This document shows, piece after piece, positions 10,403-30,259 of a stretch of 64,000 nt of DNA. Position numbers and translations under genes: made by a program. Location: the NCBI GenBank assembly GCA_951812895.1, contig OX638333.1, forward strand, positions 1,044,366 through 1,108,365, in the 5' to 3' direction. The notes under the pieces were generated by a model that did no database searches, was not told the DNA's origin, and saw nothing but the letters and a program-made list of their open reading frames with translations. The number at the start of each line of letters is the position of its first letter. The first letter of the stretch is position 1. The stretch is from an uncultured Roseovarius sp. GTDB taxonomy: Bacteria; Pseudomonadota; Alphaproteobacteria; Rhodobacterales; Rhodobacteraceae.

Positions 10403-10580
10403 AGGTCGCTTCCTTCTACAATGCATGACGCCCCCGACGCGACAACGCGGGAGTAAACAAGGATAAAACGAACTGTATCAACCAATTTTCAAAACTCAAA
10501 CTTAGGTAGGTAATGGGATGTACCGGCTGCTTCACCCAGCAGGTTAGGCTTGGCCTATTTCTGCAACATGGAGAAGTAGC

Positions 10581-11860: not shown

Positions 11861-12100
11861 AGCAGCCGGTACATACAAATGGGCTCGTTGGAGACTTTAG
11901 CTGCTGAACATTCAGATGGCGGCAGAGCCGGGCTTTGTTGCCGTCAACGGCAATTGTACGAACATCCGCTGTACCGTTTGATCATTTTCCTTTCGTGGAA
12001 CCCCGGATGCTTTGTTGAAGTAACAAGAGTTAGGGCCAAGAATTGAGCCAAAAACGAAAACGTTGTAGACTATCCTGATTACATCTCGGGAAGGAAATCT

Positions 12101-14175: not shown

Positions 14176-14202
14176 AACATCCCTCGCGTTGGTTCTCTAT
14201 GT

Positions 14203-14257
14203 ATTTCAATTTCGTATACTAAACACAAATCATATTATTATTTTTGTATATTGAAAT
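14203..14257. promoter_or_regulatory. Inverted repeat in LysR/dctP intergenic region
   Basis: ATTTCAAT (14,203-14,210) is repeated in inverse as ATTGAAAT (14,250-14,257), and both arms are next to GTATA-type sequence on their inner side. The layout, between divergent LysR and target genes, suits a LysR binding region overlapping the dctP promoter. Confidence 0.45.
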
Positions 14258-14304
14258 TGTCTACGCTCACCCAATGACAAGCATCAAATCAAGGGGAACT
14301 GATC

Positions 14305-15300
14305 ATGATCAACAAATTCAAATTCACTCTATCGGGCTTGGCTTTCGCCATTGGCTCTAGTGCTGCGTTTGCAGGCGATGTCGCGATAAACTTGGGCTTT
14401 GCAGCGCCGGAAGAAAGCGCCTATGGCGTTCTCGCCGCGAAATTCGAAGAACTGGCCGAGGAGTATTCCGGAGGATCCATCGATGTAAAAGTCCGGTGCT
14501 GCACGCAACTGGCCACGGAAGACGAAGCCTTTAAAGCAATGCAACTCGGCACGGTGGACATGTACATCATGACCCACAACAATATTTCTCCTCACTTCGC
14601 GCCAATGGAAGCATTTGTGCTGCCGTACATTTTCCAAAGTACGAATCACGCCTACAAGGTGCTGGACGGTGAGGTCGGTGCGGGCATTGCCGAGCAAATC
14701 AAACAAAAGACGTCTCTCGATCTGCTGACATTTGGTTATGTCGAATATCGTGATTTCTACAATACTGAACGGCCCATCAACAGCATCGAGGACATTCAGG
14801 GCATTCGCGTACGCGTGCCACAGAACAACGTAATGATCAAAACGCACGAGGCGTTTGGATCCGTGCCGTTACCGATTGCATGGTCTGAAACTCTGGCCGC
14901 CTTGCAAACTGGCGCGGTTTCAGCGGGCGACAGTGGCGCGTCCTTTGTTCGGTCACAGAAGTTTTACGAGATCGCCGACAACCTGGCGGTTCTGGAACAT
15001 TTCGCCTTTTTCACTCCGATGCTGGCAAGCAACCGGATTATGGGAAAGCTCGACGAATCTCAGCAGGATGCTGTGCGTCGGGCGGCGCGTGATGCAGGTC
15101 AGCACCAGCGCGTAGAAATGGCACGGCAACTGGAAGATGCACGCGAATTTCTCGCAGCGGATGGTGGCATGACGATTACCTTCCCGGACAAGGATGGCTT
15201 TATTGCAGCTGGCATCAAAGTGCAGGATGAATTCATTGCAGAAGGCGCCAATGACGCAACCAGGGCGCTGATCCTCGATATCCGCGCTGCCGCTGAATAA
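14305..15300 (+). CDS. dctP: TRAP transporter substrate-binding protein
   Basis: A 331-residue periplasmic solute receptor of a TRAP transporter. It has a signal peptide cleaved after AFA at about residue 23. The DctP core is visible: FAAPEESAYGVLAAKFEELAEE, then IQGIRVRVPQNNVMIKTHEAFGSVPLP, where the Arg that grips a substrate carboxylate is expected, and a terminal helix with VQDEFIAEG. The Arg in RVRVPQN suggests an organic-acid or amino-acid-like ligand. It is the first gene of the operon with dctQ, dctM, a ureohydrolase and a TauE-type protein. A hairpin after the gene should make it more abundant than the membrane parts. Confidence 0.93.
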   Translation: MINKFKFTLSGLAFAIGSSAAFAGDVAINLGFAAPEESAYGVLAAKFEELAEEYSGGSIDVKVRCCTQLATEDEAFKAMQLGTVDMYIMTHNNISPHFAPMEAFVLPYIFQSTNHAYKVLDGEVGAGIAEQIKQKTSLDLLTFGYVEYRDFYNTERPINSIEDIQGIRVRVPQNNVMIKTHEAFGSVPLPIAWSETLAALQTGAVSAGDSGASFVRSQKFYEIADNLAVLEHFAFFTPMLASNRIMGKLDESQQDAVRRAARDAGQHQRVEMARQLEDAREFLAADGGMTITFPDKDGFIAAGIKVQDEFIAEGANDATRALILDIRAAAE

Positions 15301-15337
15301 CCAAATTCTCCCTGTGGCCCCTGCGGCCCACCTTTTT

Positions 15338-15368
15338 GGGGCGCGTGCAATAAGCGCGCCCCCTTTTT
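15338..15368 (+). terminator. Intra-operon hairpin after dctP
   Basis: GGGGCGCG (15,338-15,345) pairs with CGCGCCCC (15,355-15,362) across a 9-base loop and is followed by a run of five T. It lies between dctP and dctQ and is probably a partial terminator or mRNA stabiliser that raises receptor expression over the permease. Confidence 0.7.
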
Positions 15369-15386
15369 CTAGAATTGGAGAGAAGC

Positions 15387-15884
15387 ATGTTTGCGAATGC
15401 TCTGTTTAAACTTGATACGCGTTTCGAAGAGATATTTTGTGTAATCGGCTTGTCGATCATGGCCATATGTATCTTCACACAAGTCATTCTGCGCGTGTTC
15501 TTTGAATCCGCGTTTCATGGCGCCGAAGAACTCGCCGTCTACGGTATGGTAACGGCCATCTACCTCGGGTGTTCGCTGGCCATTCGCGAACGCGCGCATA
15601 TCCGCATTACCTTTCTCGTCGAGAAGCTCCCGCATAAAGGGCAGGTTTTCTGCATCGTTCTGGCGGATCTGCTTTGGATGGCCTTCATCGTGTTGTTGCT
15701 TAAGGAAAGCATCACCTGGATCCAGCTGTTAATCCAATTCGACTACATTTCACCTGCTTTGGGTATCAACCAAAAATACCCCCAATCCATCGTTCCGCTC
15801 GCCCTGTGCCTGATGATCGGGCGCATGGTTCAGGTTTACTACCGATGGATCATCCGGGACAAAAAAGAAGGATTGCCGCTATGA
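15387..15884 (+). CDS. dctQ: TRAP transporter small permease subunit
   Basis: A 165-residue membrane protein with four hydrophobic helices, matching the DctQ small subunit that scaffolds the large permease. The helices lie near residues 17-38, 50-70, 90-110 and 130-150, with the usual IREAHI-like stretch present as IRERAHIRITF after helix two. I use the ATG at 15,387, preceded by GGAGAG; a TTG at 15,375 is in frame but overlaps that site. It overlaps dctM by four bases. Confidence 0.9.
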   Translation: MFANALFKLDTRFEEIFCVIGLSIMAICIFTQVILRVFFESAFHGAEELAVYGMVTAIYLGCSLAIRERAHIRITFLVEKLPHKGQVFCIVLADLLWMAFIVLLLKESITWIQLLIQFDYISPALGINQKYPQSIVPLALCLMIGRMVQVYYRWIIRDKKEGLPL

Positions 15885-17176
15885 ACGGTCCAACGTGGAT
15901 GGCAGCAGTCTTTCTGTTCACCATCGTCATCGGGGTCCCAATCCCTTTCGCCGCGGGTATCGCCACTGTTATCGGGCTCTATATCGCGGATATCCCGCTC
16001 GCGCTGTTGGCACAAAGTGCCTACAACGCCTTTGAGCCTTTTCCGCTGACCACAATTCCGCTTTTTGTTCTGGCGGGTCAGCTCATGGAAAAGGGCGGCA
16101 TGTCCGAAAAACTGATCCAGATCGCACAACGAATGATCGGAGCATATAAAGGCGGCATCGGTCTGGTGACCGTTGTGGCCTGCATGTTTTTCTCGGCGCT
16201 CTCAGGCTCCGGCCCGGCGACAACTGCCGCCATCGGGTCGATCACAATTCCAACTATGCTGAAGGAAAAGTACCGCCCGCGCTTCGCCGGAGCTGTAGCG
16301 GCAGCGGCAGGTGCCATGGGCAGCATGATACCGCCCAGCAACCTGCTGATCATTTATGGCCTCGTCACAGACGAAAGCATTCCGCGTCTCTTTCTTGCGG
16401 GCATTGTGCCGGGGTTGTTCCTGGGCTTCCTTCTTTGCGTCGTTACTTACGGTATTGCCAAAAAGAATGATTATGGCGGTACCGGTGAAAAATTCACACT
16501 TGTCCCGCTCATGTGGGCACTTTGGGAAGGCAAATGGGCCATTGGTGCGCCAGTCTTTATTTTGGGTGGAATCTATGCTGGTTTCTTCACACCATCAGAA
16601 GCTGCTGCTGCCGCCGTTTTCTATGGTCTTTTTGTCGGCCTCTTCATCTACAAGGGCCTGACCTGGCGCGGTGTCTACGAATCTCTTCGGTTTACCGCTA
16701 TTCTCGCCGGATCGATCCTGTTCATCTTGGGTTCGACAAAGGCGTTTGGGCAGTTGGTCACGATCTTTGACATCCCGGACATGGTAGGGGCGGCATTCCA
16801 GGGGATCATCGACTATCCGTGGCTCGTGATGCTTTGCATCGGTGTTGTCTACATCTTCGTCGGCATGTGGTTGGAGTCGATCCCGCAGATCATCATTTTC
16901 ACTGCAGTCATGCTTCCAATTGCAACTCAGATTGGCATAGACCCGATTGTCTTTGGCGTCTTTACGGTGATGACTTGTGAAGTGGGTTTCCTGACACCAC
17001 CAATCGGAGTGAACCTCTTTGTTGCCTCCAAACTGACGAAGACATCCGTCGAGGATATTTCAGTGGGCGTTATTCCACTGCTTATTCCTTACCTCTTCAT
17101 CATCGTTCTGCTCTGCTTCTGGGGGGACTGGGTAACGTGGTTGCCAGATCTCGTCATGGGCCCTTCACTGGATTAG
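15881..17176 (+). CDS. dctM: TRAP transporter large permease subunit
   Basis: A 431-residue integral membrane protein, the sodium-coupled transport subunit of the TRAP system. Typical DctM features are FFSALSGSGPATTAAIGSIT, AAAAGAMGSMIPPSNLLIIYG and the late PPIGVNLFVASKL motif, spread over about 11-12 helices. The ATG at 15,881 overlaps the dctQ stop as ATGA, indicating coupled translation. Ten bases separate it from the ureohydrolase gene, so the imported compound is probably that enzyme's substrate. Confidence 0.93.
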   Translation: MNGPTWMAAVFLFTIVIGVPIPFAAGIATVIGLYIADIPLALLAQSAYNAFEPFPLTTIPLFVLAGQLMEKGGMSEKLIQIAQRMIGAYKGGIGLVTVVACMFFSALSGSGPATTAAIGSITIPTMLKEKYRPRFAGAVAAAAGAMGSMIPPSNLLIIYGLVTDESIPRLFLAGIVPGLFLGFLLCVVTYGIAKKNDYGGTGEKFTLVPLMWALWEGKWAIGAPVFILGGIYAGFFTPSEAAAAAVFYGLFVGLFIYKGLTWRGVYESLRFTAILAGSILFILGSTKAFGQLVTIFDIPDMVGAAFQGIIDYPWLVMLCIGVVYIFVGMWLESIPQIIIFTAVMLPIATQIGIDPIVFGVFTVMTCEVGFLTPPIGVNLFVASKLTKTSVEDISVGVIPLLIPYLFIIVLLCFWGDWVTWLPDLVMGPSLD

Positions 17177-17185
17177 GAGAAATCA

Positions 17186-18181
17186 ATGACCAATAACAAT
17201 GATCATCCGTTCCTACGCGGTATGAGTGAACCTGCTACGTTCATGAGCGTCCCATACTCATCGAGTGTGACAGAAAGCAAGGCCGCAATCCTAGGCATTC
17301 CCTTTGATTGCGGCCAACACCCGACACGCATTGGGGCCCGTGGTGGGCCCCGTGCGATCCGCGCACAATCTTCACTCGTGCGCCGATACCAACCTCCCTT
17401 TGCTGATTTTGATCCGCTAGAGGACTTGGGAGTTGTGGACATGGGAGACGTGGCCGTGACATCAGCCAAGTTGAAAGATGCCATGCAGTTAATTGAAGCA
17501 GCCATGAGCCACATTTTTGAGCAAGATGTAGTGCCGATTACTTTTGGAGGTGATGGAGCAGTAACGCTTCCTCAGTTACGGGCGACCCAAAGCAAATATC
17601 CCGATCTTTGTGCGGTCCACTTGGATGCCCATGCAGATGCAAGTCTTGGGAATGGACCAGGTTTCGATGAGCGATACAACACAGCCACCACATTCACTCG
17701 CGCCGCTGAAGAACAGCTGGTTGATACACCCCGCTCGTATCACATCGGAGCGCGAGGCACATTGCCATTGCAAGGCACGTACAAGCACGCACAGGGACTA
17801 GGATATCAATTGATCACTACTGATGTGATGCTTGAGCGTGGTATTCCAAACGTCGCAGAGGAAGTGCACCAAACCATTGGCAACAGGCCGGTTTATCTAT
17901 GCTTCGACATGGATTTCTTCGACCCTTCTTGTGCGCCGGGTGTCTGTACACCGACCTGGGGTGGTCCGACGGCCCGCGAGGGCTTGGCCTTGTTACGATG
18001 GCTTTCCGGGCTAAACATCGTCGCGGTAGATATCAATACCGTCAGCCCCGATCACGACGTAGGGGGCATGACGGCGTTTCTGGCTGGCACAGTTGCGATG
18101 GAATGCGCCACTCTGATCGCTATGAAAAAACGACAAGACGCGCAAAGTGACAAATCTGTTGCGGCCACTCAAACAAGCTAA
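17186..18181 (+). CDS. Ureohydrolase-family protein with altered metal site
   Basis: A 331-residue member of the arginase/agmatinase family. Two metal motifs are normal: LDAHADAS (Asp147, His149, Asp151) and CFDMDFFDP (Asp241, Asp243). The first motif, usually GGDH, reads GGDGAVTLPQ, so the first metal-binding His is Gly124. Either the site holds one metal, another residue substitutes, or the chemistry differs. The rest of the fold is intact and the C-terminal NTVSPDHD motif is present, so this is not a decayed gene. It is co-transcribed with a TRAP transporter, suggesting hydrolysis of an imported guanidino or ureido acid. It is only distantly related to the ureohydrolase at 6696-7655. Confidence 0.85.
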   Translation: MTNNNDHPFLRGMSEPATFMSVPYSSSVTESKAAILGIPFDCGQHPTRIGARGGPRAIRAQSSLVRRYQPPFADFDPLEDLGVVDMGDVAVTSAKLKDAMQLIEAAMSHIFEQDVVPITFGGDGAVTLPQLRATQSKYPDLCAVHLDAHADASLGNGPGFDERYNTATTFTRAAEEQLVDTPRSYHIGARGTLPLQGTYKHAQGLGYQLITTDVMLERGIPNVAEEVHQTIGNRPVYLCFDMDFFDPSCAPGVCTPTWGGPTAREGLALLRWLSGLNIVAVDINTVSPDHDVGGMTAFLAGTVAMECATLIAMKKRQDAQSDKSVAATQTS

Positions 18182-18195
18182 AGTGGATTGATGAA

Positions 18196-18948
18196 TTGAT
18201 CATCTTTGACATCTCTCTGCTGGCTATGGCCGCATTCTTTGCGGGCATCGTTAATTCAATCGCGGGCGGCGGCAGTTTTCTGACATTCCCCGCGCTAGTG
18301 TTCACGGGCGTGCCGACCATTGCAGCTAATGCCACGAGCGCAGTGGCAGTCTTTCCTGGTTATCTCAGCGGTGCATTGGGCTTTCATAAAGAACTGCGGG
18401 ATTTACCGCTACGGCAATTGATTGTGCTTTTGGGCTTGTCGTTATTAGGCGGCGTGCTGGGAGCGCTTCTGCTATTGATAACACCCGCAAGTGTGTTTTC
18501 GGCAGTAGTGCCATGGCTTCTTGGTTTTGCGACCCTCATATTTGCCCTCGGCAACCGCATCTCGGCGTGGGCTGGTCGGAACGTAAAGGCTGAAGGCTTC
18601 ACGGGAAATTTCGCGACGTTGTTGGTCTGCGTTTACGGGGGGTATTTCAACGGAGGCTTGGGGATTGTTCTCCTTGCATTGTTTTCCGCGTTGGGAATGC
18701 GGGACATCAATTTGATGAACGGGCTTAAGAATGGCATGTCGTTTGTTCTCTCAGGCGCATCCGTCGTCACCTTCGCCTTGGCTGGCATCGTATTCTGGCC
18801 GCAAGCCCTATTGATGATGGTTGCCGCTACTATTGGCGGCTATTGCGGTGCTATCGTTGCACGGCGTCTTTCAGCGGGCGTCGTTCGGACAATTGTCGTT
18901 TGTATTGGTGTCGCAATGACTGTGGTATTCGCGCTCAGATTTCTGTGA
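18196..18948 (+). CDS. TauE/SafE-family membrane permease
   Basis: A 250-residue membrane protein with about eight hydrophobic helices and the two half-repeat motifs of the TauE/SafE family: GIVNSIAGGGSFLTFPAL in the first half and GYFNGGLGIVLLAL in the second. Characterised relatives export sulfite or sulfoacetate or move other small organic anions. It is the last gene of the TRAP-ureohydrolase operon, 14 bases after the ureohydrolase, so it may export a waste product of the pathway. The start is a TTG at 18,196 because the upstream ATG at 18,191 meets a stop at once; the ribosome binding site is weak. Confidence 0.85.
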   Translation: MIIFDISLLAMAAFFAGIVNSIAGGGSFLTFPALVFTGVPTIAANATSAVAVFPGYLSGALGFHKELRDLPLRQLIVLLGLSLLGGVLGALLLLITPASVFSAVVPWLLGFATLIFALGNRISAWAGRNVKAEGFTGNFATLLVCVYGGYFNGGLGIVLLALFSALGMRDINLMNGLKNGMSFVLSGASVVTFALAGIVFWPQALLMMVAATIGGYCGAIVARRLSAGVVRTIVVCIGVAMTVVFALRFL

Positions 18949-19327: not shown

Positions 19328-20011
19328 CTATCGCACTTTCTTCAAATGAGCCAAAACTAATCCCAGATGCGCTTTATGAATCGAAGAGGCTAGTTTGATA
19401 TCCCCCAATTCCAGACTGCGATGTAGCATCTCCATCTCATGAAGCAGTTCATCGGTCTGCTCGTCGAAATCGACGTCGTCCAGCAGTAAAAACCAGAACC
19501 GGGCGGATTGATAGAAGAGCGTATCGTTGAATTCTCTCAGGATTTGGTTGCTAACGAGCCCATGGAGTATCTCGTGCAGCCTGATGATAATGCGCGCGAA
19601 TTCTTCCTTATCGCGTGTCACTCTCAGTTTTAGACAACGCCCGATCAACGCTTCAACACTTTCAAGTATGGAGGCGTCGATCTCAACTGGCGTTGAGTCT
19701 GCGACCGCATCCATCAGGTGCATACGGATGACATAGATGTCCCGCATAGCCCCTAGGTCAATCGGAGCCACGACTGTTCCACGGCCATGTTGACTGATGA
19801 TGAAACCGTCATTCTCGAGGCGTTGCAGGACAGATCTCAACGGTGTTCTGCTGATCCCAAATTCCTGGGCCAGATCACGCTCATTCAGCCGAGAGTCGGG
19901 CTCGTAAGTCAAAAGACAGATGCGTTTTCGCAGAATTTGATAAATCTCTGCTTTACTGTAACGAATGGCCTCTGGCGCGCTCTCTTTGTATTTCACATTA
20001 TCCACCGACAA
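19328..20011 (-). CDS. GntR-family regulator (FCD type)
   Basis: A 227-residue regulator with an N-terminal winged HTH (ERDLAQEFGISRTPLRSVLQ, then LENDGFIISQHGRGTVVAPI) and a helical FCD effector domain with the expected metal-ligand positions around Asp, His and His. The start is a TTG at 20,011 preceded by AGGGAGAG; the frame runs further upstream but only inside the preceding gene. It overlaps the dehydratase gene by 19 bases and is the last gene of a six-gene operon, so it is very probably the operon's own regulator. FadR-type GntR proteins bind palindromes built on GTATAC, and such a site lies at the operon promoter (24,802-24,815). Confidence 0.87.
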   Translation of the reverse strand: MSVDNVKYKESAPEAIRYSKAEIYQILRKRICLLTYEPDSRLNERDLAQEFGISRTPLRSVLQRLENDGFIISQHGRGTVVAPIDLGAMRDIYVIRMHLMDAVADSTPVEIDASILESVEALIGRCLKLRVTRDKEEFARIIIRLHEILHGLVSNQILREFNDTLFYQSARFWFLLLDDVDFDEQTDELLHEMEMLHRSLELGDIKLASSIHKAHLGLVLAHLKKVR

Positions 20012-20943
20012 AAACTCTCCCTGTCGACGTTTCCGCCGGATACAATGGCGACGACTACTTTGCCCGCCCAATCTTGCCTTCCCTTCATCGCGGCCGATAC
20101 TGCAACTGCGCCTCCGGGTTCCGCAACAATCTTGAATTCCTCGAAAAGGGCTTTCATGCCTGCTATCACCTCTGACTCTTTAACAACGAATCCCTCAGAA
20201 AGCAGCTTTTGATTGATGGCGAATGTAAGCTTCCCGGGGATTTGGGTCACGATCGAATCGCAAATCGAAGAATTGCCCGGCGTGTTTGCAACTCGCGCCG
20301 CTTGTGCCAATGACCTCGCCGTATCGTCGAAATGCTCCGGTTCGACGGGGTGAACAGATGTCCGTTCACTGAGCGCTGCAAAGGCAGTCGCCACGCCAGC
20401 GATCAGACCGCCGCCTCCGACAGGACAAAAAAGGGCGTCAGGACGAATATTCAACTGCGCAAGTTGCTCAATGATTTCCAAACCAACAGTCCCTTGGCCC
20501 GACATCAAGACAAAATCGTCGTATGGCGGGATCAATATCGCCCCGGTGCGCCCCGCGATGTCGCTCGCGATCATTGTGCGATCCTCGTTTAGACGATCAT
20601 AGGTGATGACGTGCGCACCATACTCTGCTGTGCGCTGCAGCTTTATGGTCGGCGCATCTGATGGCATGACAATGCTTGCTTGCACATTGAGCATGGAGGC
20701 CGCCTTTGCCACCCCTTGCGCGTGGTTTCCCGAAGAAAAAGCGACAACGCCAGCGGCCCGTTCCCGGGGTCTCAAAGTTGCGATTTTCGTATACGCCCCG
20801 CGAATTTTAAACGACCCGGTTTCCTGAAGACATTCCGGCTTGATTATCAGCCGAAACCCCAGCTTTTGGTTCAACAATTCAGATTCAAGCAACGGAGTGA
20901 CCCGGCTGACGCCTCGCAATGTTTCCGAAGCAGCATGGATCAT
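19993..20943 (-). CDS. Threonine dehydratase-like PLP enzyme
   Basis: A 316-residue fold-type II PLP enzyme. Lys46 in ETGSFKIRGAY is the cofactor lysine, FSSGNHAQGVA binds the substrate carboxylate, and CPVGGGGLIAG holds the phosphate. It lacks the C-terminal regulatory domain of biosynthetic IlvA, so it is catabolic in type: threonine/serine dehydratase, hydroxyaspartate dehydratase (BhcB-like) or EutB-like. It lies directly after an aspartate dehydrogenase gene with 17 bases between them. That makes a beta-hydroxyaspartate-type substrate attractive, because its dehydration gives iminosuccinate. I use the ATG at 20,943; a TTG four codons earlier is also possible. The upstream extension in the same frame only overlaps the dehydrogenase. 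Confidence 0.85.
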   Translation of the reverse strand: MIHAASETLRGVSRVTPLLESELLNQKLGFRLIIKPECLQETGSFKIRGAYTKIATLRPRERAAGVVAFSSGNHAQGVAKAASMLNVQASIVMPSDAPTIKLQRTAEYGAHVITYDRLNEDRTMIASDIAGRTGAILIPPYDDFVLMSGQGTVGLEIIEQLAQLNIRPDALFCPVGGGGLIAGVATAFAALSERTSVHPVEPEHFDDTARSLAQAARVANTPGNSSICDSIVTQIPGKLTFAINQKLLSEGFVVKESEVIAGMKALFEEFKIVAEPGGAVAVSAAMKGRQDWAGKVVVAIVSGGNVDRESFCRWIM

Positions 20944-20960
20944 ATCGATTGTCAGCAACT

Positions 20961-21776
20961 TCAGGTCCCGATTTGCAATGTTGCTGACTGGTTTTGTAGC
21001 ATCGCTATGACGCTCAATGGCGTAATCCGGCCGGTTGCCGGGTTTTTTGCAGAGGGCCGACCTTGAATCGCGACCGTGAAATCCGAGCTGTCTGAGGTGA
21101 CCCTTACCGTGTGTGTGTTGCGATCCAGAGTTGGGTCTGCCCAAACTTCCATACGAGTCCGGTCAGGGCCAATACCCGCAAGGCTGAGCGCGGCGGCTAC
21201 GTTGACGTTGGCGGGAAACACGCGCGCCACCTCGGTGACGGATCCTTCGATGATTCTGACCGCTTCGGTGATCCCGGTCAGATCAATCTTCTCTTGGGCC
21301 AGATACGGAGCTTTGATCAAACCGGCAACGGGTTTGCGGGTTTCAATGACGACTGAATGAATCTCACCAACCGCGGTCGCTTTGAGGGCATCAAGACCAA
21401 GCATTGCGCCGGATGGAACGACGATCCGCGCGCCGTGTTCTTGCGCATGCGAGATTAAATCTTGATGCTCCAAGAGCTGGCTGCAAGACAGCACGATCAA
21501 TATCTTGCCGGCCGACAGAACAGGGCGCGCCAGATCAGCGAATAATGCCGGAGGGAGGCCCTCTAGCGCCCAATCGCACTCGTTTGCTAATTCAGCGAAA
21601 TTCATGAAAGGCACAGGTGTCGACAGCGTTGCATTCAATGCGTCCAACCGTGTCTGGCTGCTCGCAGCGATACCCGCCAGTTTGAACCCTGGTATGTCGC
21701 CCCGGCTCAACGCCTGGGCCACGGTGGTTCCAATTGCGCCGGTTCCGGCAATTCCAATTTTTTGTATTTTTTCCAT
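20961..21776 (-). CDS. nadX: L-aspartate dehydrogenase
   Basis: A 271-residue NAD(P)-dependent enzyme that interconverts L-aspartate and iminosuccinate/oxaloacetate. The Rossmann motif GIAGTGAIGTTVAQAL is at residues 8-23. The family signatures are ARVFPANVNVAAALSLAGIG and PSAKNPATGRITPLSVIA, the latter with the usual catalytic-site residues. Length and ends match the family (about 265-270). In characterised bacteria this enzyme serves NAD synthesis or aspartate catabolism. Its place among amidase, M24 hydrolase and dehydratase genes speaks for catabolism here. It starts 33 bases after the amidase stop and precedes the dehydratase with almost no gap. Confidence 0.88.
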   Translation of the reverse strand: MEKIQKIGIAGTGAIGTTVAQALSRGDIPGFKLAGIAASSQTRLDALNATLSTPVPFMNFAELANECDWALEGLPPALFADLARPVLSAGKILIVLSCSQLLEHQDLISHAQEHGARIVVPSGAMLGLDALKATAVGEIHSVVIETRKPVAGLIKAPYLAQEKIDLTGITEAVRIIEGSVTEVARVFPANVNVAAALSLAGIGPDRTRMEVWADPTLDRNTHTVRVTSDSSDFTVAIQGRPSAKNPATGRITPLSVIAMLQNQSATLQIGT

Positions 21777-21809
21777 AAGCTTTTACGTTTTACGATGTTT
21801 ATCTGGAAA

Positions 21810-23225
21810 TCAACCGGCGCCACCGTCAATCTTTGGCAGCGGTATTGCGAACTTTTCGTTTCGTTCGATGAAGTGACCGACCCTGAGGATTGTACTCTCT
21901 TCAAAGTAACGACCAACAAGTTGCAATGCGACCGGCAAGCCGTCTGAATGCATGCCGCAGGGCATTGTCAGGGCTGGATGCCCTGTCATGTTGAAGAATG
22001 TTGTGAAGCGGGTGATCGCATTCCCGATCGCTTCTTCGACACCGTCGCGCATGGTCTTCACCGTCCCAAGCTTTTGTGCAATTTCCGGCGTTGCCGGTGT
22101 CAAGATCACGTCGACATCTTCAAACAATGCGTTGGTCTGCTGCCGATACATTTCGATAAATCGCCTGGCGCGTACGTAGTGCTCGGCCAACAGGCACTGA
22201 CCGAGCGCCAAGCCTGCGCGAAAGTCTTTCCCGTAAAGTTCTCCCCGCTCTTGCAGGAATGCGGAATGTGCGCTCAAGGCTTCTGGCATCTGAACTGTCA
22301 GCGAAATGGTGCGGCTGTGTTCCATGTCCGGAAAGGTAACAGGCCGCAATTGCGCGCCGTGCTCCGAAAGGTGTGATTTGACCCTTTCCACAGCCTCCAG
22401 GATTTCCGGATCGGTACGCTCGTAATAGAAATTCGCAGGAATACCCACGCGCAGGCCTTTAATACCGCCACCAAGGTGCTCGGCATAGTTATCGACAGGA
22501 TGGTTGGAGGATGCCGGATCGCATGGGTCAAAACCCGCAACGATACCCAACAGATCGGCGCAGTCGGCGATGGTACGTGTGATCAGGCCTACATGATCCA
22601 GTGTCCAGCAATAGGGCACGACACCGGTAGTTGGCACGCGTCCAATCGTGGGTTTCAGTCCGACCAGGCCATTTAGGGCCGCGGGTGCACGCACTGATCC
22701 GCCTGTATCCGTTCCCAAGGCGGCGGGCACCAAACCGAAAGCGACGGCAGCGGCCGAACCGCTGGAGGAGCCCCCTGCAAGACGCGTCGGATCATAGGCG
22801 TTGACACAAGTGCCGTAGACGTCGTTTTCTCCGGTTGCTCCATAGGCAAATTCGTGCAGGTTGGTCTTGCCCATGCTCAAGGCACCGGCGGCACGCAGCT
22901 GCCTGATCGTGAATGCATCTTCCGAGGCGACCCGGTCGTGAAACACACGGGATCCGGCTGTTGTCAACACACCTTCAACATCGAACAGATCCTTGCTGGC
23001 AAATGGAATGCCGGCAAAAGGTGATCTTGCAAGGTCTTTAGTCGTAAGCCTCGCCGCGTCCCCAGTTGCAGATTTATCCGTGACGGTGATGAACGCGTGA
23101 GAGAGATCATTGAAACGTGCAATGCGGTCAGCGAAGGTCTCAACAAGTTCGCTTGGTGTTATCTTTCCCGTATCAAGGAGCCGTTTCAGGGATTGTACGT
23201 CAAGGAATGAAAGCTCTTCCGGCAT
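21810..23225 (-). CDS. Amidase-signature hydrolase
   Basis: A 471-residue amidase-signature enzyme with the full Ser-cisSer-Lys triad: Lys78 in FASKDLFDV, the cis-Ser in GGSSSGSAAAVAFG near residue 154, and the nucleophile Ser177 in GTDTGGSVRAP. It is GatA/AtzE-like in layout. The gene just upstream encodes a 69-residue GatC/AtzG-like protein ending four bases before this start, as seen for amidases that work with a small partner. The start at 23,225 avoids a 15-codon extension that overlaps the partner gene. Its substrate is probably an acyclic amide or carbamoyl compound made by the M24-family hydrolase, but this is inference. Confidence 0.9.
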   Translation of the reverse strand: MPEELSFLDVQSLKRLLDTGKITPSELVETFADRIARFNDLSHAFITVTDKSATGDAARLTTKDLARSPFAGIPFASKDLFDVEGVLTTAGSRVFHDRVASEDAFTIRQLRAAGALSMGKTNLHEFAYGATGENDVYGTCVNAYDPTRLAGGSSSGSAAAVAFGLVPAALGTDTGGSVRAPAALNGLVGLKPTIGRVPTTGVVPYCWTLDHVGLITRTIADCADLLGIVAGFDPCDPASSNHPVDNYAEHLGGGIKGLRVGIPANFYYERTDPEILEAVERVKSHLSEHGAQLRPVTFPDMEHSRTISLTVQMPEALSAHSAFLQERGELYGKDFRAGLALGQCLLAEHYVRARRFIEMYRQQTNALFEDVDVILTPATPEIAQKLGTVKTMRDGVEEAIGNAITRFTTFFNMTGHPALTMPCGMHSDGLPVALQLVGRYFEESTILRVGHFIERNEKFAIPLPKIDGGAG

Positions 23226-23229
23226 GGGC

Positions 23230-23439
23230 TTATCTTTTCTGAACTGTAAGCGCGGGGGGCGTTGTTCCAAGGTCGATCTGTCGTAATGTTTCCAATTCGT
23301 CCAGAAGCTCTTGAAAACCAGTGATTATGCCCAATTTAGGCTCCACCAGTTCATCCAGTTCCTCTTCGGTCCACGTATGGCTCGCCATTTGTGCGCACAC
23401 GTTGGTCAGGGTCTGTTTGGTCAATGGTTTCATATGCAT
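23230..23439 (-). CDS. Small AtzG/GatC-like amidase partner
   Basis: A 69-residue acidic helical protein. After a helical stretch (EEELDELVEPKLGIITGFQE) it ends with LETLRQIDLGTTPPALTV. The pattern of a short helix followed by a Leu-Arg-x-Ile-Asp-Leu/Pro-Pro tail recalls DUF4089/AtzG and GatC, which wrap around an amidase-signature subunit and stabilise it. The similarity is by pattern only and needs a profile search. Gene order and the four-base gap to the amidase strongly support a two-subunit amidase. No good ribosome binding site precedes the ATG; a second ATG follows two codons later. Confidence 0.65.
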   Translation of the reverse strand: MHMKPLTKQTLTNVCAQMASHTWTEEELDELVEPKLGIITGFQELLDELETLRQIDLGTTPPALTVQKR

Positions 23440-23490
23440 TATCCGTTCCGGGGCACGAGGGAGAGCGCACCCCGGAGCAATTGGAGTCCC

Positions 23491-24669
23491 TCATCGAATG
23501 ATGAGGGTCTCAGGTGTTTGATTGGTCAGGATTTCGGCGCCGTTTTCTGTCAGCAGCACAGTGTTCGAAATGAAATAATCAACCACATCGGTGTTGGTGA
23601 ACCAGGAATGGGCATGGAAAACCATGCCAACTTCGAGCGTGCGTTGTGAATTCGGAAACAGCGATGTCACCATTGATCCGCCTGTCCAGCTGGGCGGGAA
23701 ACCAATGCCGACCATATAACCGCAATGATGACGTTCGTAATCATGCAGGCCAGCAGAAGCGGCAACGTCTCGCCAGGCTGCGTATGCGTCACCAGCTTTG
23801 CCCCCCGGTTTCAGAGCACCGCAAATCGCCTTCATCCCGTCGATCGCCAACTCGGCGGATTTTTCAGCCCCCTCTGGCGCAGACCCAACGTAGACCAAAC
23901 GCCCCATCGGTGCCTGATACTTGCGATAGGCGCCGCAAGTTTCCATGAACACGGCATCACCATTGTGAAAGGTGTCGCCGCGCCATGTGGTGTGTTCTTC
24001 ACCCAGCCGGGTTGTCGGGCGGAAAAACGGTCCGAAGCCGGGGTATTCGCTTCCCTCCAGGATCGTCTTGTGGTGGTAGGCGGCAGAAATCTCGTAATCT
24101 GACGCGCCGTCTCGCACCGCTTCGATCGCGGCCAGAGTTCCAAGATCAGCGGCACGTGCCGCAGCGCGCGTGTACTCCATCTCCAAAGGCGATTTGACTT
24201 GCCGAAGATCGTCGATGATGCCGGACCCGTCGATCCAGTCTGCCTCAGTATCGCCTGCCTGGATCAGTTCCGCATGACGAGGGGTTAGAAACAGGCTGCG
24301 CTTTTCTATTCCGACGCGCCCGCCCTTCAAGCCCAGATCAGACATTGCGCGTAGGACATGATCCGAAAGTTCTTCATGATCCTTGTGCCCATAAAAGCGC
24401 GCATTCGAAACTTGGTTGTCAAAAGTGATCTTCTCCATCGCGCGACAGACAAGGCCCATCTCGCCATTTCGGTTCAGCACCAAAACATGCGCAGCGAAGA
24501 ACCCCCAGTGATCCATCCCGGTCAACCAGTAGATGCTTTCGGGTACGGAAATCAAAATCCCATCGAGGTGGTTTGCCGACAGGGCGGCAGTGGCACGCTG
24601 AACACGCGCGGATAGTTCCGAAATGGGAAACGGAGCCGTTCCTCCGGGTTCTTTTTTTGCAACGTTCAT
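23491..24669 (-). CDS. M24-family creatinase/ectoine hydrolase-like protein
   Basis: A 392-residue pita-bread-fold protein. The N-terminal domain (residues 1-155) carries SIYWLTGMDHWGFFAAH-type creatinase_N sequence and the C-terminal domain is M24. The five metal ligands of Xaa-Pro peptidases are not there: the Asp-Asp region reads ETCGAYRKYQAPMGR, the first Glu position reads FHAHSWF, and the last Glu region reads DYFISNTVLL. This matches the metal-free members (creatinase, DoeA/EutD ectoine hydrolase), which cleave C-N bonds in guanidino or cyclic amidine compounds. AAGGAG precedes the ATG at 24,669; the 38-codon extension upstream is not supported. It is the first gene of the six-gene operon and faces a binding-protein gene. 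Confidence 0.82.
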   Translation of the reverse strand: MNVAKKEPGGTAPFPISELSARVQRATAALSANHLDGILISVPESIYWLTGMDHWGFFAAHVLVLNRNGEMGLVCRAMEKITFDNQVSNARFYGHKDHEELSDHVLRAMSDLGLKGGRVGIEKRSLFLTPRHAELIQAGDTEADWIDGSGIIDDLRQVKSPLEMEYTRAAARAADLGTLAAIEAVRDGASDYEISAAYHHKTILEGSEYPGFGPFFRPTTRLGEEHTTWRGDTFHNGDAVFMETCGAYRKYQAPMGRLVYVGSAPEGAEKSAELAIDGMKAICGALKPGGKAGDAYAAWRDVAASAGLHDYERHHCGYMVGIGFPPSWTGGSMVTSLFPNSQRTLEVGMVFHAHSWFTNTDVVDYFISNTVLLTENGAEILTNQTPETLIIR

Positions 24670-24707
24670 GGAGAACTCCTTTTGGGTGTGGTGATGAGAA
24701 AAAGCCA

Positions 24708-24815
24708 TTAGGTACACCAATAAATTGATATAGCGGCGAACTGCAAGGGTAAATTGCCATATAGTGGCTCTATATCGAATCATCTTGCGCTTATTATTTC
24801 AATTGGTATACCATT
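24708..24815. promoter_or_regulatory. Paired GntR-type operator candidates
   Basis: Between the divergent M24 and binding-protein genes lie ATTGGTATACCATT (24,802-24,815), with the exact 10-base palindrome TGGTATACCA, and a weaker copy TTAGGTACACCAAT (24,708-24,721). GTATAC-centred palindromes are typical targets of FadR-type GntR regulators, and such a regulator is the last gene of the operon. A further dyad, ATATAG-5-CTATAT, lies at 24,759-24,775. Both promoters of the region could be controlled from here. Confidence 0.6.
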
Positions 24816-25030
24816 TAAGGCGCATCAATGTCCCAGGGAGTACCAAAAACCTCACGCTCGCATTCCAGAAATTCGAATACCGCAGCCCAGATGTGTCCAA
24901 GACGTCCGTTGCTGCGACGAGAAAAGTCAGCCTGTTTTTCTTCGCCCGACAAGCCACTTGGGGAATGCCAGAAAACTTGGATGACACGTGCACAGCCTAC
25001 GAAACGAAACCCAACTGGAAAGGTGTCTTT

Positions 25031-26644
25031 ATGACCAAGAAAACCGATCAAATTTTATTAGATAAATTGGCCTATGCTGCAAAGATGGGCGGAATCTCAC
25101 GCCGATCTTTCATGCACTATTCGATGGTGGCAGGAGTGACAGCAAGCGCAGCCACCGGCTTATGGACCAGCAGTGCCCACGCGCAGGAACCTCGCCGGGG
25201 CGGCACCTTCAAGGTTGGAATGCACGATGGCAACACATCAGATACTCACGACCCGGGCACATACTCCTCGCGTCAGCAGATCTATCTGGCACACCAATAC
25301 CGTAGCTACCTGACATTGATCGAGCCAGACGGCACGCTTGGACCAGATCTTGCGACCAATTGGGCGGCAAACTCGGATGCATCTGTCTGGACGTTTGAGC
25401 TTAACCGTAATGCGTCCTTCCACAGCGGCAGCAAGGTCACATCAAAAGATGTCATCGCCTCGCTCAACCATCACAGAGGAGACGATTCCACGTCGGCGGC
25501 GAAGGCGTTGCTGGCTTCAGTGACGGACATGCAGGCCGATGGGGACAATACTGTCGTCGTCACATTGGATAGCGGCAACGCTGATCTTCCGTGGTTGATG
25601 ACAGACTACCACCTGCCCATCTGTCCGGCCAATGACGACGGAACCATGAACTGGCAAAGCGGCGACGGATCGGGCCCCTACAAGATCGAAAATGGCGAGT
25701 GGGGCGTAAGCTGGAGTCTGAGCCGCCACGAAGGCTGGCATCTCGAAGGTGCCTATTTCGACAAAGTTGAGATGTTGGTTCTCAACGACCCGAACGCGCG
25801 GCAATCCGCATTGGTCACAGGCGACGTGGATGCGGTGACATCAATTGACCTCAAGACTTCGGCGCTCATGGAACGTGATCCGAACATTGCAATTGACAAT
25901 GTGCCTTCCGGCGCGGCGATCACCATGCCGATGCATTGCAACACAGTCCCCTTCGACGACGTCAACGTGCGCAATGCACTCAAGCTGTCGATTGACCGCA
26001 ATGAGATCATCGAGAAGATTGCGTTTGGTGCAGCATCAATCGGCAATGATTTCCACCATTCTCCGGCCCAGCCGTATTGGCCAGACGATGTCGAACAGCG
26101 CGAATATGACCCGGATCAATCCAAGGCGCTTCTCAAGAAAGCTGGCATGGAGGGTCTCACCGTCGACATTTCGACGGCAGACAGCCTGTTCTCGGGAGCA
26201 GTCGACATGTGCGTGCTATACGCGGCGCAAGCAAAGGCCGCCGGCATTACTGTCAACGTGGTGCGTGAGGCCAATGACGGCTACTATAACGATGTTTGGT
26301 TGCAGAAACCGTTTTGTGCAGTGTCTTGGGGGGCACGTCCGACACCGGATGTTATGTACACTTTGGCCTACAAAGATGACGCCGCATGGAACGAGAGCTT
26401 TTGGCAGAATGAGCGGTTTAACGAGTTGCTTCTTCAAGCGAAGGGCGAGCTTGACGACGGCTTGCGTGCAGAAATGTACCGCGAAATGGTGGTCATTGCC
26501 CGCGATGACGGCGGTACCATCATTCCGATGTTCAATAACTTTGTCTATGCACGGCGCAGCAATGTCATGCACGGCCCCAACCTAGCTGCAAGTTGGGAAC
26601 TTGATGGCGCCCGCGGCCCAAGCCGTTGGTGGTTCTCTGGCTGA
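25031..26644 (+). CDS. Peptide/nickel-type ABC substrate-binding protein (Tat-exported)
   Basis: A 537-residue SBP_bac_5 periplasmic binding protein, homologous to the one at 4210-5766. The Tat signal is at residues 24-57 (SRRSFMHYS, a hydrophobic run, then SAHAQEPRRGG). Mature landmarks are SDASVWTFELNRNASFHSGS, YHLPICPAND and YDPDQSKALLKKAGM. The start at 25,031 has AAAGGTG upstream; a much longer frame from 24,764 has no signal-like content. It faces the M24-amidase operon and shares its operator region, so it likely binds the compound that operon breaks down. Permease and ATPase genes are absent. Confidence 0.9.
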   Translation: MTKKTDQILLDKLAYAAKMGGISRRSFMHYSMVAGVTASAATGLWTSSAHAQEPRRGGTFKVGMHDGNTSDTHDPGTYSSRQQIYLAHQYRSYLTLIEPDGTLGPDLATNWAANSDASVWTFELNRNASFHSGSKVTSKDVIASLNHHRGDDSTSAAKALLASVTDMQADGDNTVVVTLDSGNADLPWLMTDYHLPICPANDDGTMNWQSGDGSGPYKIENGEWGVSWSLSRHEGWHLEGAYFDKVEMLVLNDPNARQSALVTGDVDAVTSIDLKTSALMERDPNIAIDNVPSGAAITMPMHCNTVPFDDVNVRNALKLSIDRNEIIEKIAFGAASIGNDFHHSPAQPYWPDDVEQREYDPDQSKALLKKAGMEGLTVDISTADSLFSGAVDMCVLYAAQAKAAGITVNVVREANDGYYNDVWLQKPFCAVSWGARPTPDVMYTLAYKDDAAWNESFWQNERFNELLLQAKGELDDGLRAEMYREMVVIARDDGGTIIPMFNNFVYARRSNVMHGPNLAASWELDGARGPSRWWFSG

Positions 26645-27146: not shown

Positions 27147-28088
27147 TCACAAACCCGCAGCCTCGTTCAGGATCACGGCCGCAAAGACGTCCTGATGCGC
27201 GCCACCGATGTTCTTGTAAACGGTGATTTGATCTTCCCTGGTCCGCCCAGCATCTCGTCCTTGAACGAGGTCGAACGCGTCGCCCTGAATATCGTCCCAG
27301 CTAAGTGCACCGGAGGCAACTGGCAGCGTCAGTTCGCCCACCTCATCGCGGCCACGGTCGCAACAGGTAAAGACCGTTCCGCGCCGCATCGCATCATCAT
27401 CCGTCTCGCGCATATCCGGCAGGTAGGATCCCACCAGATCGAGGTGGGCCCCGGGTTTCAGCATTGCACCTTTTACCAGTGGTGCGCGCGACATGGTCAC
27501 GCAGCTGATCACATCCGCCTCTGCCACCGCAGCATCAAGATCCGGCGCGGCCTCGGCATTGATACCCTGCGTGCGCAGCGTGGCCGCCAAGGCCTCGGCC
27601 CGGCGAGCGGTGCGATTCCAAATCCATACACGAGCGATTGACGGGCGTGCCGCAATATGGGCCAAGGCCACATGCGGGCCCAGCCCGCCCGCGCCAACTA
27701 TCAGCAGCTCCTGTGGTTCAGGTGGGGCCAGCAACGCTGTGCCAAGCCCCGAGATGGCAGCGGTCTTGCGATAGGTCATGGCCTCCCCATCAGCCACCAA
27801 CACCGGCGCACCGGTGTGTGCGTCGAACGCCGCAACTGCACCAAGGACCGAACCGATAGGAGGATCAAGATCACGATTGCCGGGAAAGACACCTACCATC
27901 TTGACCACGATCAGTTGCCCGCCCAACCAGCCGGGCAAAGTGACGAACATATTGCCGGTCCCGTTCGGATCCTCGGTATAGACACCGTCTCCCTCTGGCA
28001 TCTTTCCTTCGTGTAGCTTTTGCAGTGCTGGGATCAGGCTGTCGTAAGGAAGCAGCCGATGAACGGTTTCGGCATCAAACATCTGCAT
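27147..28088 (-). CDS. Ornithine cyclodeaminase/mu-crystallin family oxidoreductase
   Basis: A 313-residue NAD(P)-binding enzyme of the OCD/mu-crystallin family, which also includes alanine dehydrogenase (Ala), ketimine reductases and EutC/BhcD-type iminosuccinate reductases. The glycine-rich loop is LLIVGAGGLGPHVALAH (about residues 127-143). The expected N-terminal Lys (VVKMVGVFPGN) and the substrate-binding Arg (MTYRKTAA, followed by GLGTALLAP) are present. The C-terminal motif DLVQGR-x-AGRTREDQITVYKN is standard. It stands between the binding-protein gene and a divergent flavoprotein gene. With a dehydratase and an aspartate dehydrogenase 6 kb away, an imine-reducing role is possible. Specific reaction unknown. 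Confidence 0.85.
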   Translation of the reverse strand: MQMFDAETVHRLLPYDSLIPALQKLHEGKMPEGDGVYTEDPNGTGNMFVTLPGWLGGQLIVVKMVGVFPGNRDLDPPIGSVLGAVAAFDAHTGAPVLVADGEAMTYRKTAAISGLGTALLAPPEPQELLIVGAGGLGPHVALAHIAARPSIARVWIWNRTARRAEALAATLRTQGINAEAAPDLDAAVAEADVISCVTMSRAPLVKGAMLKPGAHLDLVGSYLPDMRETDDDAMRRGTVFTCCDRGRDEVGELTLPVASGALSWDDIQGDAFDLVQGRDAGRTREDQITVYKNIGGAHQDVFAAVILNEAAGL

Positions 28089-28225
28089 GGCACGACTCCT
28101 TCAGGCAAAAACCGGATTCACACCCACCCTAAAGCTCTGAAGCAGAATGCCAAAATTTTCTTTGACCGGATCGCGCGCTGAGACCAGACTTGTCTCTAGC
28201 AATTTATGGGATGAGGACTGCTATC

Positions 28226-30259
28226 ATGAACGCACCTGCCGATGTCTCCAGAACCGATCCGCTTCTTCAACCTTTCAAACTGGGACATCTAAAGCTGCGC
28301 AACCGGATCATGAGCACTTCGCATGCCATAGGTTTTGGCGAGGATGGTATGCCTGCAGGGCGTTACCAGCGCTATCACGAGGCCAAAGCGCAAGGAGGGA
28401 TCGGGCTGACCATGTTTGGCGGGTCGACTAATGTGTCGCGCGACAGTGCCAACACGTTTGGCCAGCTCAGCGCCAGCGATGATCGCGTCATTCCTTTCTT
28501 CCAAGAGTTTGCGGATCGTATTCACAAACATGGGGCGGCTCTCATGTGCCAACTCACCCATCTGGGCGGTCGTAGCCAATGGCGCGGGGACAACTGGCTG
28601 CCAACCATCTCACCCAGCCGGTTCCGCGAGCCACTGCACCGCGGTTTCACCAAGGAAATGCAAGCCGAGGATATCACCCGCGTGATCACAGATTTTGGTC
28701 AGGCCGCGCGGCGCTGTTATGAAGGTGGGCTCGACGGATGCGAACTGCACATCGCCGGGCATCTTATCGGTCAGTTCTGGTCACCCGCCACTAACCAACG
28801 CAGTGACGACTTTGGCGGCAGCCTTGAGAACCGCGCTCGGTTCGGCCTCATGGTACTTGAGGAGATACGTCGTGTGGTCCCGCAGCCCTACCTCGTCGGG
28901 GTGCGCATGGCAGTGGGCGAAGGCGATGGCGGTGTGATGCCGGATGAGGAGTATCTGGCGATGGCCGAGATACTCGAACGTTCCGGCCTGATCGATTTTT
29001 TCAATTTCACTTACGGGCGCATCGACACCGAGGTGGGGCTTGCCCGCTACATGCCGGGCATGGCGTTGGGGTTGGCCCCGCAACTGCGACCGGTGGCAAA
29101 TTTCCGGCAGCATGTGGATTTACCTGTCTTTCACGCAGCCCGGATCAACGACATGGCCACTGCCCGTTTCGCAGTGGCCGAAGGCCATGTCGATCTCATT
29201 GGCATGACACGCGCGCATATTGCCGATCCCCATATCGCGCGAAAGCTTTCGGAAGGGGTGGAGGAGACGATCCGCCCCTGCGTCGGTGCAACTTATTGCT
29301 CATGGCACGGCAGTTGCATTCATAATCCCGCCATCGGCCGCGAGGATGTGCTGCCACATGTGGTCAAAAAGGCCGATACGCCGAAACGTGTCACTGTGGT
29401 CGGTGCAGGCCCCGGCGGGCTGGAAGCCGCGCGCGTCGCCGCTGAACGGGGCCATACCGTTACCCTACTGGAGGCTGCGCCCAAGGCGGGCGGTCAGATC
29501 CTGCTGGCGTCGCAGCTTGACCTGCGTCGCGATCTGATCGGTATTGTCGACTGGCGGGTCAGTGAGTTGGAGCGCCTCGGCGCGACGGTGCGCTACAACA
29601 TGTTGGCGGGCCCCGACCAGGTCGCCGAGACTGAGCCCGACACCGTCGTCATTGCCACTGGCGGCTTGCCCGACCGGCTAGAGGACATCCCCGGCACCGA
29701 GCTTGGGATGCCTCTCTGGGAGGCGCTTGAAGCCACCGCCCCGCCCGAGGGCGACGTTATCTTTTACGATGGGACTGGCACGGCTGCGGGATTGAACGGC
29801 GCGCATACACTGGCAACGGCAGGCACAGCGTTGATTTACGTGACCCCCGACAGAACCGCTGGTGTTGAGATCAGCGAAATCGAACGGCCCCTACAAATGC
29901 GTGCATTCTATAACTCTGGCGCAATACTGTGCCCCGACCTCACACTGCGTCGTGTAGCACGCGACGAAAATCGCCTGCGCCTGACTTTCGAGAACAGCTA
30001 CAGCGGCGACAAAATAGAGATGAACTGCGACACACTGATCTACGAACATGGTACGCTGCCCGCCGATGAGCTCTATCTTGAATTGGCGGGTGTATCGCGT
30101 AATCACGGCTTACCGGACTTGACGGCATGGACAGCCGCGCAGCCGCAACCCGAAAGTGATAGGGAAGGCTTCGATCTCTACCGGATAGGGGATGCCAACT
30201 CGTCGCGAGACATCCACGCCGCGATGCTCGATGCCGCACGGCTCTGCGCGCAACTCTAG
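28226..30259 (+). CDS. OYE/TMADH-family flavin oxidoreductase with FAD/NAD domain
   Basis: A 677-residue two-domain oxidoreductase related to 2,4-dienoyl-CoA reductase, trimethylamine dehydrogenase and amine demethylases. Residues 1-330 form the FMN-binding TIM barrel (FNFTYGRID, ARINDMATARFAVAEGHVDLIGMTRA). From about residue 385 there is a Rossmann domain (VTVVGAGPGGLEAARVAAE) and later an NAD-site region. The [4Fe-4S] region reads PCVGATYCSWHGSC, with Cys at about 352, 358 and 363 and Ala at about 355, where the family usually has the second Cys. The ATG at 28,226 is preceded by GAGG; 28,211 and 28,190 are alternatives. Oxidative N-demethylation of a methylated amine or betaine is a plausible role, given relatives in such pathways. 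Confidence 0.83.
   Translation: MNAPADVSRTDPLLQPFKLGHLKLRNRIMSTSHAIGFGEDGMPAGRYQRYHEAKAQGGIGLTMFGGSTNVSRDSANTFGQLSASDDRVIPFFQEFADRIHKHGAALMCQLTHLGGRSQWRGDNWLPTISPSRFREPLHRGFTKEMQAEDITRVITDFGQAARRCYEGGLDGCELHIAGHLIGQFWSPATNQRSDDFGGSLENRARFGLMVLEEIRRVVPQPYLVGVRMAVGEGDGGVMPDEEYLAMAEILERSGLIDFFNFTYGRIDTEVGLARYMPGMALGLAPQLRPVANFRQHVDLPVFHAARINDMATARFAVAEGHVDLIGMTRAHIADPHIARKLSEGVEETIRPCVGATYCSWHGSCIHNPAIGREDVLPHVVKKADTPKRVTVVGAGPGGLEAARVAAERGHTVTLLEAAPKAGGQILLASQLDLRRDLIGIVDWRVSELERLGATVRYNMLAGPDQVAETEPDTVVIATGGLPDRLEDIPGTELGMPLWEALEATAPPEGDVIFYDGTGTAAGLNGAHTLATAGTALIYVTPDRTAGVEISEIERPLQMRAFYNSGAILCPDLTLRRVARDENRLRLTFENSYSGDKIEMNCDTLIYEHGTLPADELYLELAGVSRNHGLPDLTAWTAAQPQPESDREGFDLYRIGDANSSRDIHAAMLDAARLCAQL

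Follow-up and report, generated by a model that had tools for sequence, protein, structure and literature searches.

What does the six-gene catabolic operon at positions 19328..26644 of a 64-kb stretch of DNA from an uncultured Roseovarius sp. (the window) break down, and by which route? From profile scores, trees and the neighbourhoods of its relatives, we propose that it is a GntR-controlled catabolic operon, a paralogous counterpart of (hydroxy)ectoine catabolism, that serves an ectoine-like amidine or guanidine zwitterion, probably not ectoine; we regard the chances of this proposal being right or wrong as about evenly balanced. The genes, their order and conservation, the loss of metal ligands and a kept glutamate in the core hydrolase M24-2, and a conserved palindrome are directly supported by the sequence.

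Organization of the operon

On the minus strand, the genes run in the order M24-2, G, amidase, AspDH, THD and GntR, and a binding protein gene lies divergently on the plus strand. The features are as follows:

23491..24669, minus strand: M24-2, core gene, creatinase-fold DoeA-like hydrolase without metal ligands (Pfam, profiles, alignment and tree; start inferred)
23230..23433, minus strand: G, conserved protein of 67 aa that presumably partners the amidase (open reading frame, ORF; no family match)
21810..23225, minus strand: amidase, GatA/AtzE-like (Pfam, profiles, alignment of relatives)
20961..21776, minus strand: aspartate dehydrogenase, AspDH (Pfam, over the PRK13302 cut-off)
19993..20943, minus strand: THD, pyridoxal-phosphate dehydratase (Pfam, profiles; start inferred)
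19328..20011, minus strand: GntR/FCD regulator, overlapping the end of THD (Pfam; TTG start inferred)
24804..24813, no strand: TGGTATACCA, a palindromic candidate operator for GntR within the divergent promoter (core GGTATACC kept in 17 loci)
25031..26644, plus strand: SBP5, binding protein of family 5, twin-arginine motif close to the N-terminus (Pfam; TAT model just under its cut-off)

ORF translations gave open frames for all named genes, and Pfam assigned the families GntR+FCD, PALP, Asp_DH_C, Amidase, Peptidase_M24+Creatinase_N and SBP_bac_5. The operon of six genes facing a binding protein, as outlined in a preliminary description of this DNA, is thus borne out, with G as the only gene outside a named family. 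The tight packing given there was also found: computed with the chosen starts (one presumed or inferred start each for M24-2, THD and GntR), the spacers are 57 bp between M24-2 and G, 4 bp between G and amidase, 33 bp between amidase and AspDH and 17 bp between AspDH and THD, and THD and GntR overlap by 19 bp. The most likely start is 24669 for M24-2 and 25031, rather than the mechanical ORF start at 24764, for the binding protein.

M24-2 resembles the ectoine hydrolase DoeA

Compared with solved structures, the M24-2 profile scored highest against DoeA (167.8 bits), followed by prolidase (123) and creatinase 1chm (83.6), and creatinase is therefore not its closest solved relative. At the five positions that we take to be the metal ligands of prolidase 1pv9 (D, D, H, E and E), M24-2 carries E, P, Y, H and S, respectively, in agreement with the earlier account of an M24 enzyme without metal ligands. 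The glutamate at position 243 of the 392-aa protein aligns with a DoeA glutamate, presumably the catalytic residue of DoeA. M24-2 is of the DoeA/EutD type in that a glutamate replaces the first metal aspartate and the metal ligands are absent, and its scores are below both ectoine-hydrolase cut-offs (144 bits against 613 for TIGR02993 and 183.6 against 575 for NF038259). A peptidase role was rejected because the five ligands of metal-dependent M24 peptidases are lost, which also contradicts the label 'Xaa-Pro peptidase family protein' given to these genes in plasmid records. An AlphaFold model was poor (pLDDT 62.8) and adds nothing to the structural argument. Amidine hydrolysis by M24-2 is the best-supported mechanistic step that can be predicted from these comparisons.

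In a phylogenetic tree of 38 rows, 16 M24-2 rows including the window protein formed a clade (support 99/98), which was joined at 92/100 with six relatives termed M24-2b, while the 8 DoeA rows made up a clade of their own (100/100), separate from both; two rows from the window's own genome were left out, and four others had very long branches and an unsure placement. The M24-2 proteins of the window and of Roseovarius albus cluster with those of Roseibium/Labrenzia (96/97), not Shimia/Ruegeria, which suggests horizontal transfer.

Distribution of the module

M24 proteins of at least 60% identity define 23 loci: the window, 15 loci from a single GTDB genome scan, five plasmids, and the loci L036 and L037. 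Gene presence across them rests on tblastn; contigs or stretches are cut in L010, L017, L021 and L037, making absences there uncertain, and the loci are not independent, several being near-duplicates. The other 22 loci mostly belong to marine Alphaproteobacteria or lie on large plasmids in Rhizobium and Mesorhizobium that associate with legumes. Nine plasmid records contain the M24 gene (60-80% identity), of which five were fetched, and the same nine hold the amidase (60-80%) and AspDH (57-59%). Samples drawn evenly gave matches at 1e-90 in 7 of 394 genomes from the window's family, namely its own genome, two at 65-70% identity and four M24-2b at 44-47%, and in 2 of 385 genomes from its class, namely the own genome again and an M24-2b at 43%; since so few genomes matched, the module is considered rare and accessory.

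The conserved neighbourhood raised in the preliminary description was found in part: M24, amidase and AspDH recur on the same nine plasmid records, whereas gene set and order vary. The six genes are not fixed as one set, with amidase in 14, AspDH in 13, THD in 10 and a threonine-aldolase-like gene, LTA, in 9 of the 23 loci. No lead came from the genes around AspDH relatives on further plasmids, from Palleronia and Pseudoroseomonas, nor from those around a distant amidase in Roseibium aggregatum.

A PhyH-type dioxygenase, at 11143 in L018, L019 and L020, is present in 3 of the 23 loci. Its place straight after M24-2 and its nearest solved relative, MysH (E 2.7e-25, L018), would fit a pathway for mycosporine-like amino acids, in which M24-2 hydrolyses the vinylogous amidine and LTA or THD takes the released Ser or Thr. 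However, so few loci have the dioxygenase, AspDH and the amidase are left unexplained, and we know of no mycosporine-like compound from legume nodules, which makes this pathway most improbable.

The amidase, its small neighbour G and the GATase

The order M24-G-amidase is repeated in other families, and G is present in 15 of the 23 loci. The Lys and Ser motifs of the amidase are kept in all nine aligned relatives. As in AtzE/AtzG and GatA/GatC, an amidase of this family has a small protein encoded just upstream; different from these systems, the window amidase is under both the AtzE (PRK09201, 350.5 of 461) and the GatA (326.5 of 481.1) cut-offs, and the family of G is undetectable. Pfam searches at E 10 with eight relatives of G yielded no GatC/AtzG match and one chance hit (0.31), and the G profile had no match in the PDB at E 1. 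The earlier designation of G as AtzG/GatC-like hence comes down to size and place.

The amidase (14 loci) and a glutamine-amidotransferase-type (GATase) protein (7 loci) were never found together in the 23 loci, and neither was found in L036 and L037. The Cys and His-Glu motifs of the GATase were seen in six of the seven loci; the translated L021 stretch has stops and no Cys motif, the L017 stretch has one stop, and a family score was obtained for L015 only. Because amidase plus G and the GATase are seemingly interchangeable, the bond cleaved after the M24-2 step is suggested to be a carboxamide.

AspDH and THD

AspDH reached 306.5 bits against PRK13302, an NCBIfam equivalog with a cut-off of 253; this family points to iminosuccinate as the substrate. 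The top score of THD was to threo-3-hydroxy-L-aspartate ammonia-lyase (PRK07048, 307.8 bits), where the cut-off of 452 is not reached; its score to EutB was 203.1 of 413 bits. By analogy, THD and AspDH may parallel EutB and EutC as well as BhcB and BhcD, which convert a beta-hydroxy amino acid to an imine and the imine to an amino acid. The operon shares with the beta-hydroxyaspartate cycle (BhcABCD) the logic of a dehydratase and an imine reductase leading to aspartate, but it lacks BhcA, BhcC and BhcD, and THD reaches 226.2 of 550 bits for BhcB. In a Roseovarius albus operon that otherwise matches, LTA is present and THD absent; an LTA relative (41%) is encoded elsewhere in the window's genome.

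Association with ectoine genes

EutA-like proteins (173-228 bits, cut-off 318) were found near M24-2 in L012, L013, L016, L022, L036 and L037 and near an M24-2b relative in L039; the protein family F8, considered as a regulator, was rejected as such and is EutA-like instead. In L016, M24-2 is in line with DoeB (556.7, cut-off 402.7), LTA and a protein that resembles DoeA (424.4 of 613), and in L012 and L021, EutB, EutC, DoeA and DoeB share the contig with M24-2. In L038, L040 and L042, the M24-2b relatives adjoin EhuABCD and EutB-like genes, and L038 and L040 each have an EutC-like gene as well. The L042 EutB scored 423.2 of 413 (PRK07476) and 401.3 of 413.35 (TIGR02991), and the EutB-type gene of L040 was identified by tblastn only.

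The module therefore resembles (hydroxy)ectoine catabolism (ehuABCD-eutABCDE, DoeA/DoeB) in having a DoeA-like M24 hydrolase that lacks metal ligands, in the EhuABCD, EutA-like and DoeB proteins of module relatives, and in the pair of a dehydratase and an NAD(P)-dependent imine reductase. It differs in that its M24 protein forms a separate clade under the DoeA cut-offs, that amidase plus G or a GATase-type protein is present in 21 of the 23 loci, that AspDH stands instead of EutC, that SoxB and SoxA accompany M24-2 in 11 of the 23 loci, and that its regulator is an FCD-type GntR, whereas that of the eut operon is EnuR, which is of the MocR type. Ectoine clusters are described in PMC13188858 and PMC5924519, the latter naming EnuR as a member of the GntR superfamily. 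The former mentions clusters with two eutD homologs and reports that EutD (DoeA) converts 5-hydroxyectoine; 'amidase' and 'aspartate dehydrogenase' are absent from its main text, and 'sarcosine' occurs there once. Searches of the open-licence PMC literature returned no description of this gene combination, which agrees with the preliminary statement that no described pathway is known with this set.

It may be asked whether the operon degrades 5-hydroxyectoine or ectoine itself, with M24-2 opening the ring, amidase plus G replacing DoeB, and LTA or THD with AspDH acting on 3-hydroxy-2,4-diaminobutyrate. The EutA-like and DoeB neighbours, the reported activity of EutD on 5-hydroxyectoine (PMC13188858) and an EhuB pocket that module loci share with the EutB-containing L040 and L042 (see below) are in favour of this. 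However, the own genome has DoeA over the cut-off at two places outside the operon (777.2 bits), which argues that the operon serves another compound, and L012 and L021 hold DoeA, DoeB, EutB and EutC besides M24-2 on one contig. Moreover, Pfam found no DoeB, EutB, EutC, transaminase or aldehyde dehydrogenase among the window operon genes, and the sarcosine oxidase would be left without a role. We consider ectoine itself an unlikely substrate. The M24-2 scores under both ectoine-hydrolase cut-offs and the DoeA genes elsewhere likewise speak against an already assigned ectoine pathway, consistent with the preliminary description.

Association with sarcosine oxidase and one-carbon genes

SoxB and SoxA of L011 and L028 exceed the sarcosine-oxidase cut-offs and those of the rhizobial L024 do not; SoxG of L011 reaches 77.6 of the 143.95 bits required. 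EhuABCD, an M24-2b relative and Sox genes occur together in L028 and L041. Among the five fetched rhizobial loci, all have purU and three have folD and RidA. None of Sox, purU, folD and RidA is present in the window operon; three full-length SoxA-like genes (36-37%) are located elsewhere in its genome. A 775-aa protein of L009, tried as the N-demethylase of the module, was rejected, its matched piece being best assigned to trimethylamine-N-oxide demethylase (533.1 of 1100 bits). The preliminary description had overlooked the sarcosine oxidases and the tie to ectoine genes, as well as the transporter swap and the palindrome described below.

Creatinase is paired with heterotetrameric sarcosine oxidase, and the module shares with this system the creatinase fold and, in relatives, SoxBDAG in line. 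A creatine or guanidino pathway would make M24-2 a creatinase analogue releasing sarcosine and urea, followed by sarcosine oxidase in relatives, and would draw on the over-cut-off SoxB and SoxA proteins, the joint occurrence in L028 and L041, and two agmatinase-family genes in the window (17186-18181 and 6696-7655). Yet M24-2 is nearer to DoeA than to creatinase, the additional amidase, AspDH and dehydratase are unneeded for creatine, SoxG of L011 and SoxB/SoxA of L024 fall short of their cut-offs, and the agmatinase-like genes are under the agmatinase cut-offs; this pathway seems to us quite unlikely. Canavanine, other legume guanidines, homarine, imidazole-acetate, methylpurines and pyoverdine-type rings are further conceivable substrates, which we treat as weak guesses.

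Binding protein and transporters

The binding protein was previously called Tat-exported; its RR motif is visible, and the TAT domain model is just below the cut-off (16.4 bits, cut-off 16.7). No membrane components were seen adjoining the window SBP5. A complete SBP5-permease-permease-ATPase operon lies near 2.56 Mb of the chromosome (L076, 8472-14134), the binding protein of which is 66% identical to the orphan SBP5, and this system is a possible membrane partner. Across the 23 loci, EhuB is present in 11 and SBP5 in 7, never both, and 5 have neither. The EhuB pocket E-W-W-Y-R, at positions that we take to be the ectoine site of 2q88 (Glu, Phe, Tyr, Phe and Arg there), is identical in the 10 aligned module loci (of 11 with EhuB), L040 and L042.

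A conserved palindrome in the divergent promoter

The only copy of GGTATACC in the window is at 24805, inside the divergent promoter. Each of the 17 loci that have the module GntR (at least 48% identity to the window's or the rhizobial GntR) carries the palindrome in a gap adjoining GntR, transporter or M24 genes; together they contain 26 such gap sites and two others, one of the two in the GATase-GntR gap of L020. The palindrome is absent from L013, L014, L017, L021, L036, L037 and the M24-2b loci, among which L038 has a 75-aa GntR-like piece (57%) at the stretch end and no palindrome. For the 14 GntR loci tested, a GTATAC hexamer was estimated to turn up by chance in a promoter region with a probability of 0.05-0.11; L012 and L022 had no GTATAC in the promoter pieces first cut and have sites in the neighbouring gap. 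The longer TGGTATACCA occurs at three places in the genome, equal to a reversed control pattern, and the argument therefore rests on the conserved place of the palindrome, which is a candidate GntR operator.

Proposed pathway

We infer from sequence the substrate, all reactions, GntR binding and the transporter link of the following pathway. The divergent binding protein would capture the compound, with membrane components maybe from the related 2.56 Mb system. M24-2 would hydrolyse the amidine C-N bond via its DoeA-like glutamate, leaving an amide, which amidase plus G would hydrolyse to a 3-hydroxyaspartate-type amino acid. THD would then dehydrate this product to an imine (iminosuccinate), which AspDH would reduce to aspartate. 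In relatives, a further intermediate may be N-demethylated by the sarcosine-oxidase complex. The C-N opening, amide hydrolysis and hydroxy- or amino-succinate-like product expected in the preliminary description are retained at the strength that the DoeA-like M24 protein and the AspDH and THD scores allow.

Several observations weigh against this pathway. THD and AspDH are found in only 10 and 13 of the 23 loci, and the window operon itself has no sarcosine oxidase or LTA (tblastn). The four GATase loci present in the tree form one clade, and the mutual exclusion of amidase and GATase may therefore reflect one or two events. No amidase was found in the stretches read of L036 and L037, the former keeping a G-like ORF (38%), and G194 gave no amidase match at 1e-60. 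M24-2 and THD fail their equivalog cut-offs, which makes the substrates assigned to them tentative. The EhuB of L038, also beside a EutB gene, differs at two of the five pocket positions. Finally, no palindrome precedes the 2.56 Mb transporter, GGTATACC being absent from the surrounding 19.9 kb, and the palindrome therefore does not tie this transporter to the operon.

A more specific candidate substrate, which we hold to be very doubtful, is a natural amidine joining sarcosine (N-methylglycine) to asparagine or 3-hydroxyasparagine. M24-2 would split this amidine into sarcosine and a primary carboxamide, from which amidase plus G or the GATase-type hydrolase would release ammonia to give (3-hydroxy)aspartate; sarcosine oxidase and PurU/FolD would take the N-methyl group, and THD with AspDH, or the aldolase, would finish 3-hydroxyaspartate. 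If true, this would explain almost every gene, and an undescribed osmolyte- or opine-like compound would be common to marine and legume-associated habitats.

Surroundings of the operon

A 1366-bp stretch with an IS110-family transposase (window 10512-11877) is 100% identical to L061 9413-10778 of the same genome, where the copy sits between two pieces of an M24-2b-type gene divergent to a EutA-like (Amdase) gene; this sister locus appears to have been broken by the same IS110 element. At 13276-18948, the window encodes LysR, a TRAP transporter (DctP, DctM), an agmatinase-family hydrolase and a TauE-type exporter, a group that ends about 380 bp from the operon; with the second agmatinase-like gene at 6696-7655, a guanidino-compound system may be a neighbour of the operon. 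On the other side (27147-30259), an ornithine-cyclodeaminase/pyrroline-2-carboxylate-reductase-like gene is divergent from a long OYE-type flavin oxidoreductase, a pair that presumably resembles genes for proline-betaine demethylation; L009 had no match to either. Close to the operon region, at 31435-33197, an integrase-like gene of 328 aa and an AMP-binding (acetyl-CoA-synthetase-like) ORF of 303 aa are possible remains of an integration event.

Implications

Ectoine catabolism is usually traced via DoeA/EutD. A parallel module with its own regulation and a sister hydrolase at its core, common to seawater bacteria and to plasmids of legume-associated rhizobia, suggests that these habitats contain a second class of nitrogen compounds resembling ectoine. 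The shared palindrome and the minimal relatives, consisting of a transporter, an M24 relative and sarcosine oxidase, make the substrate directly searchable.

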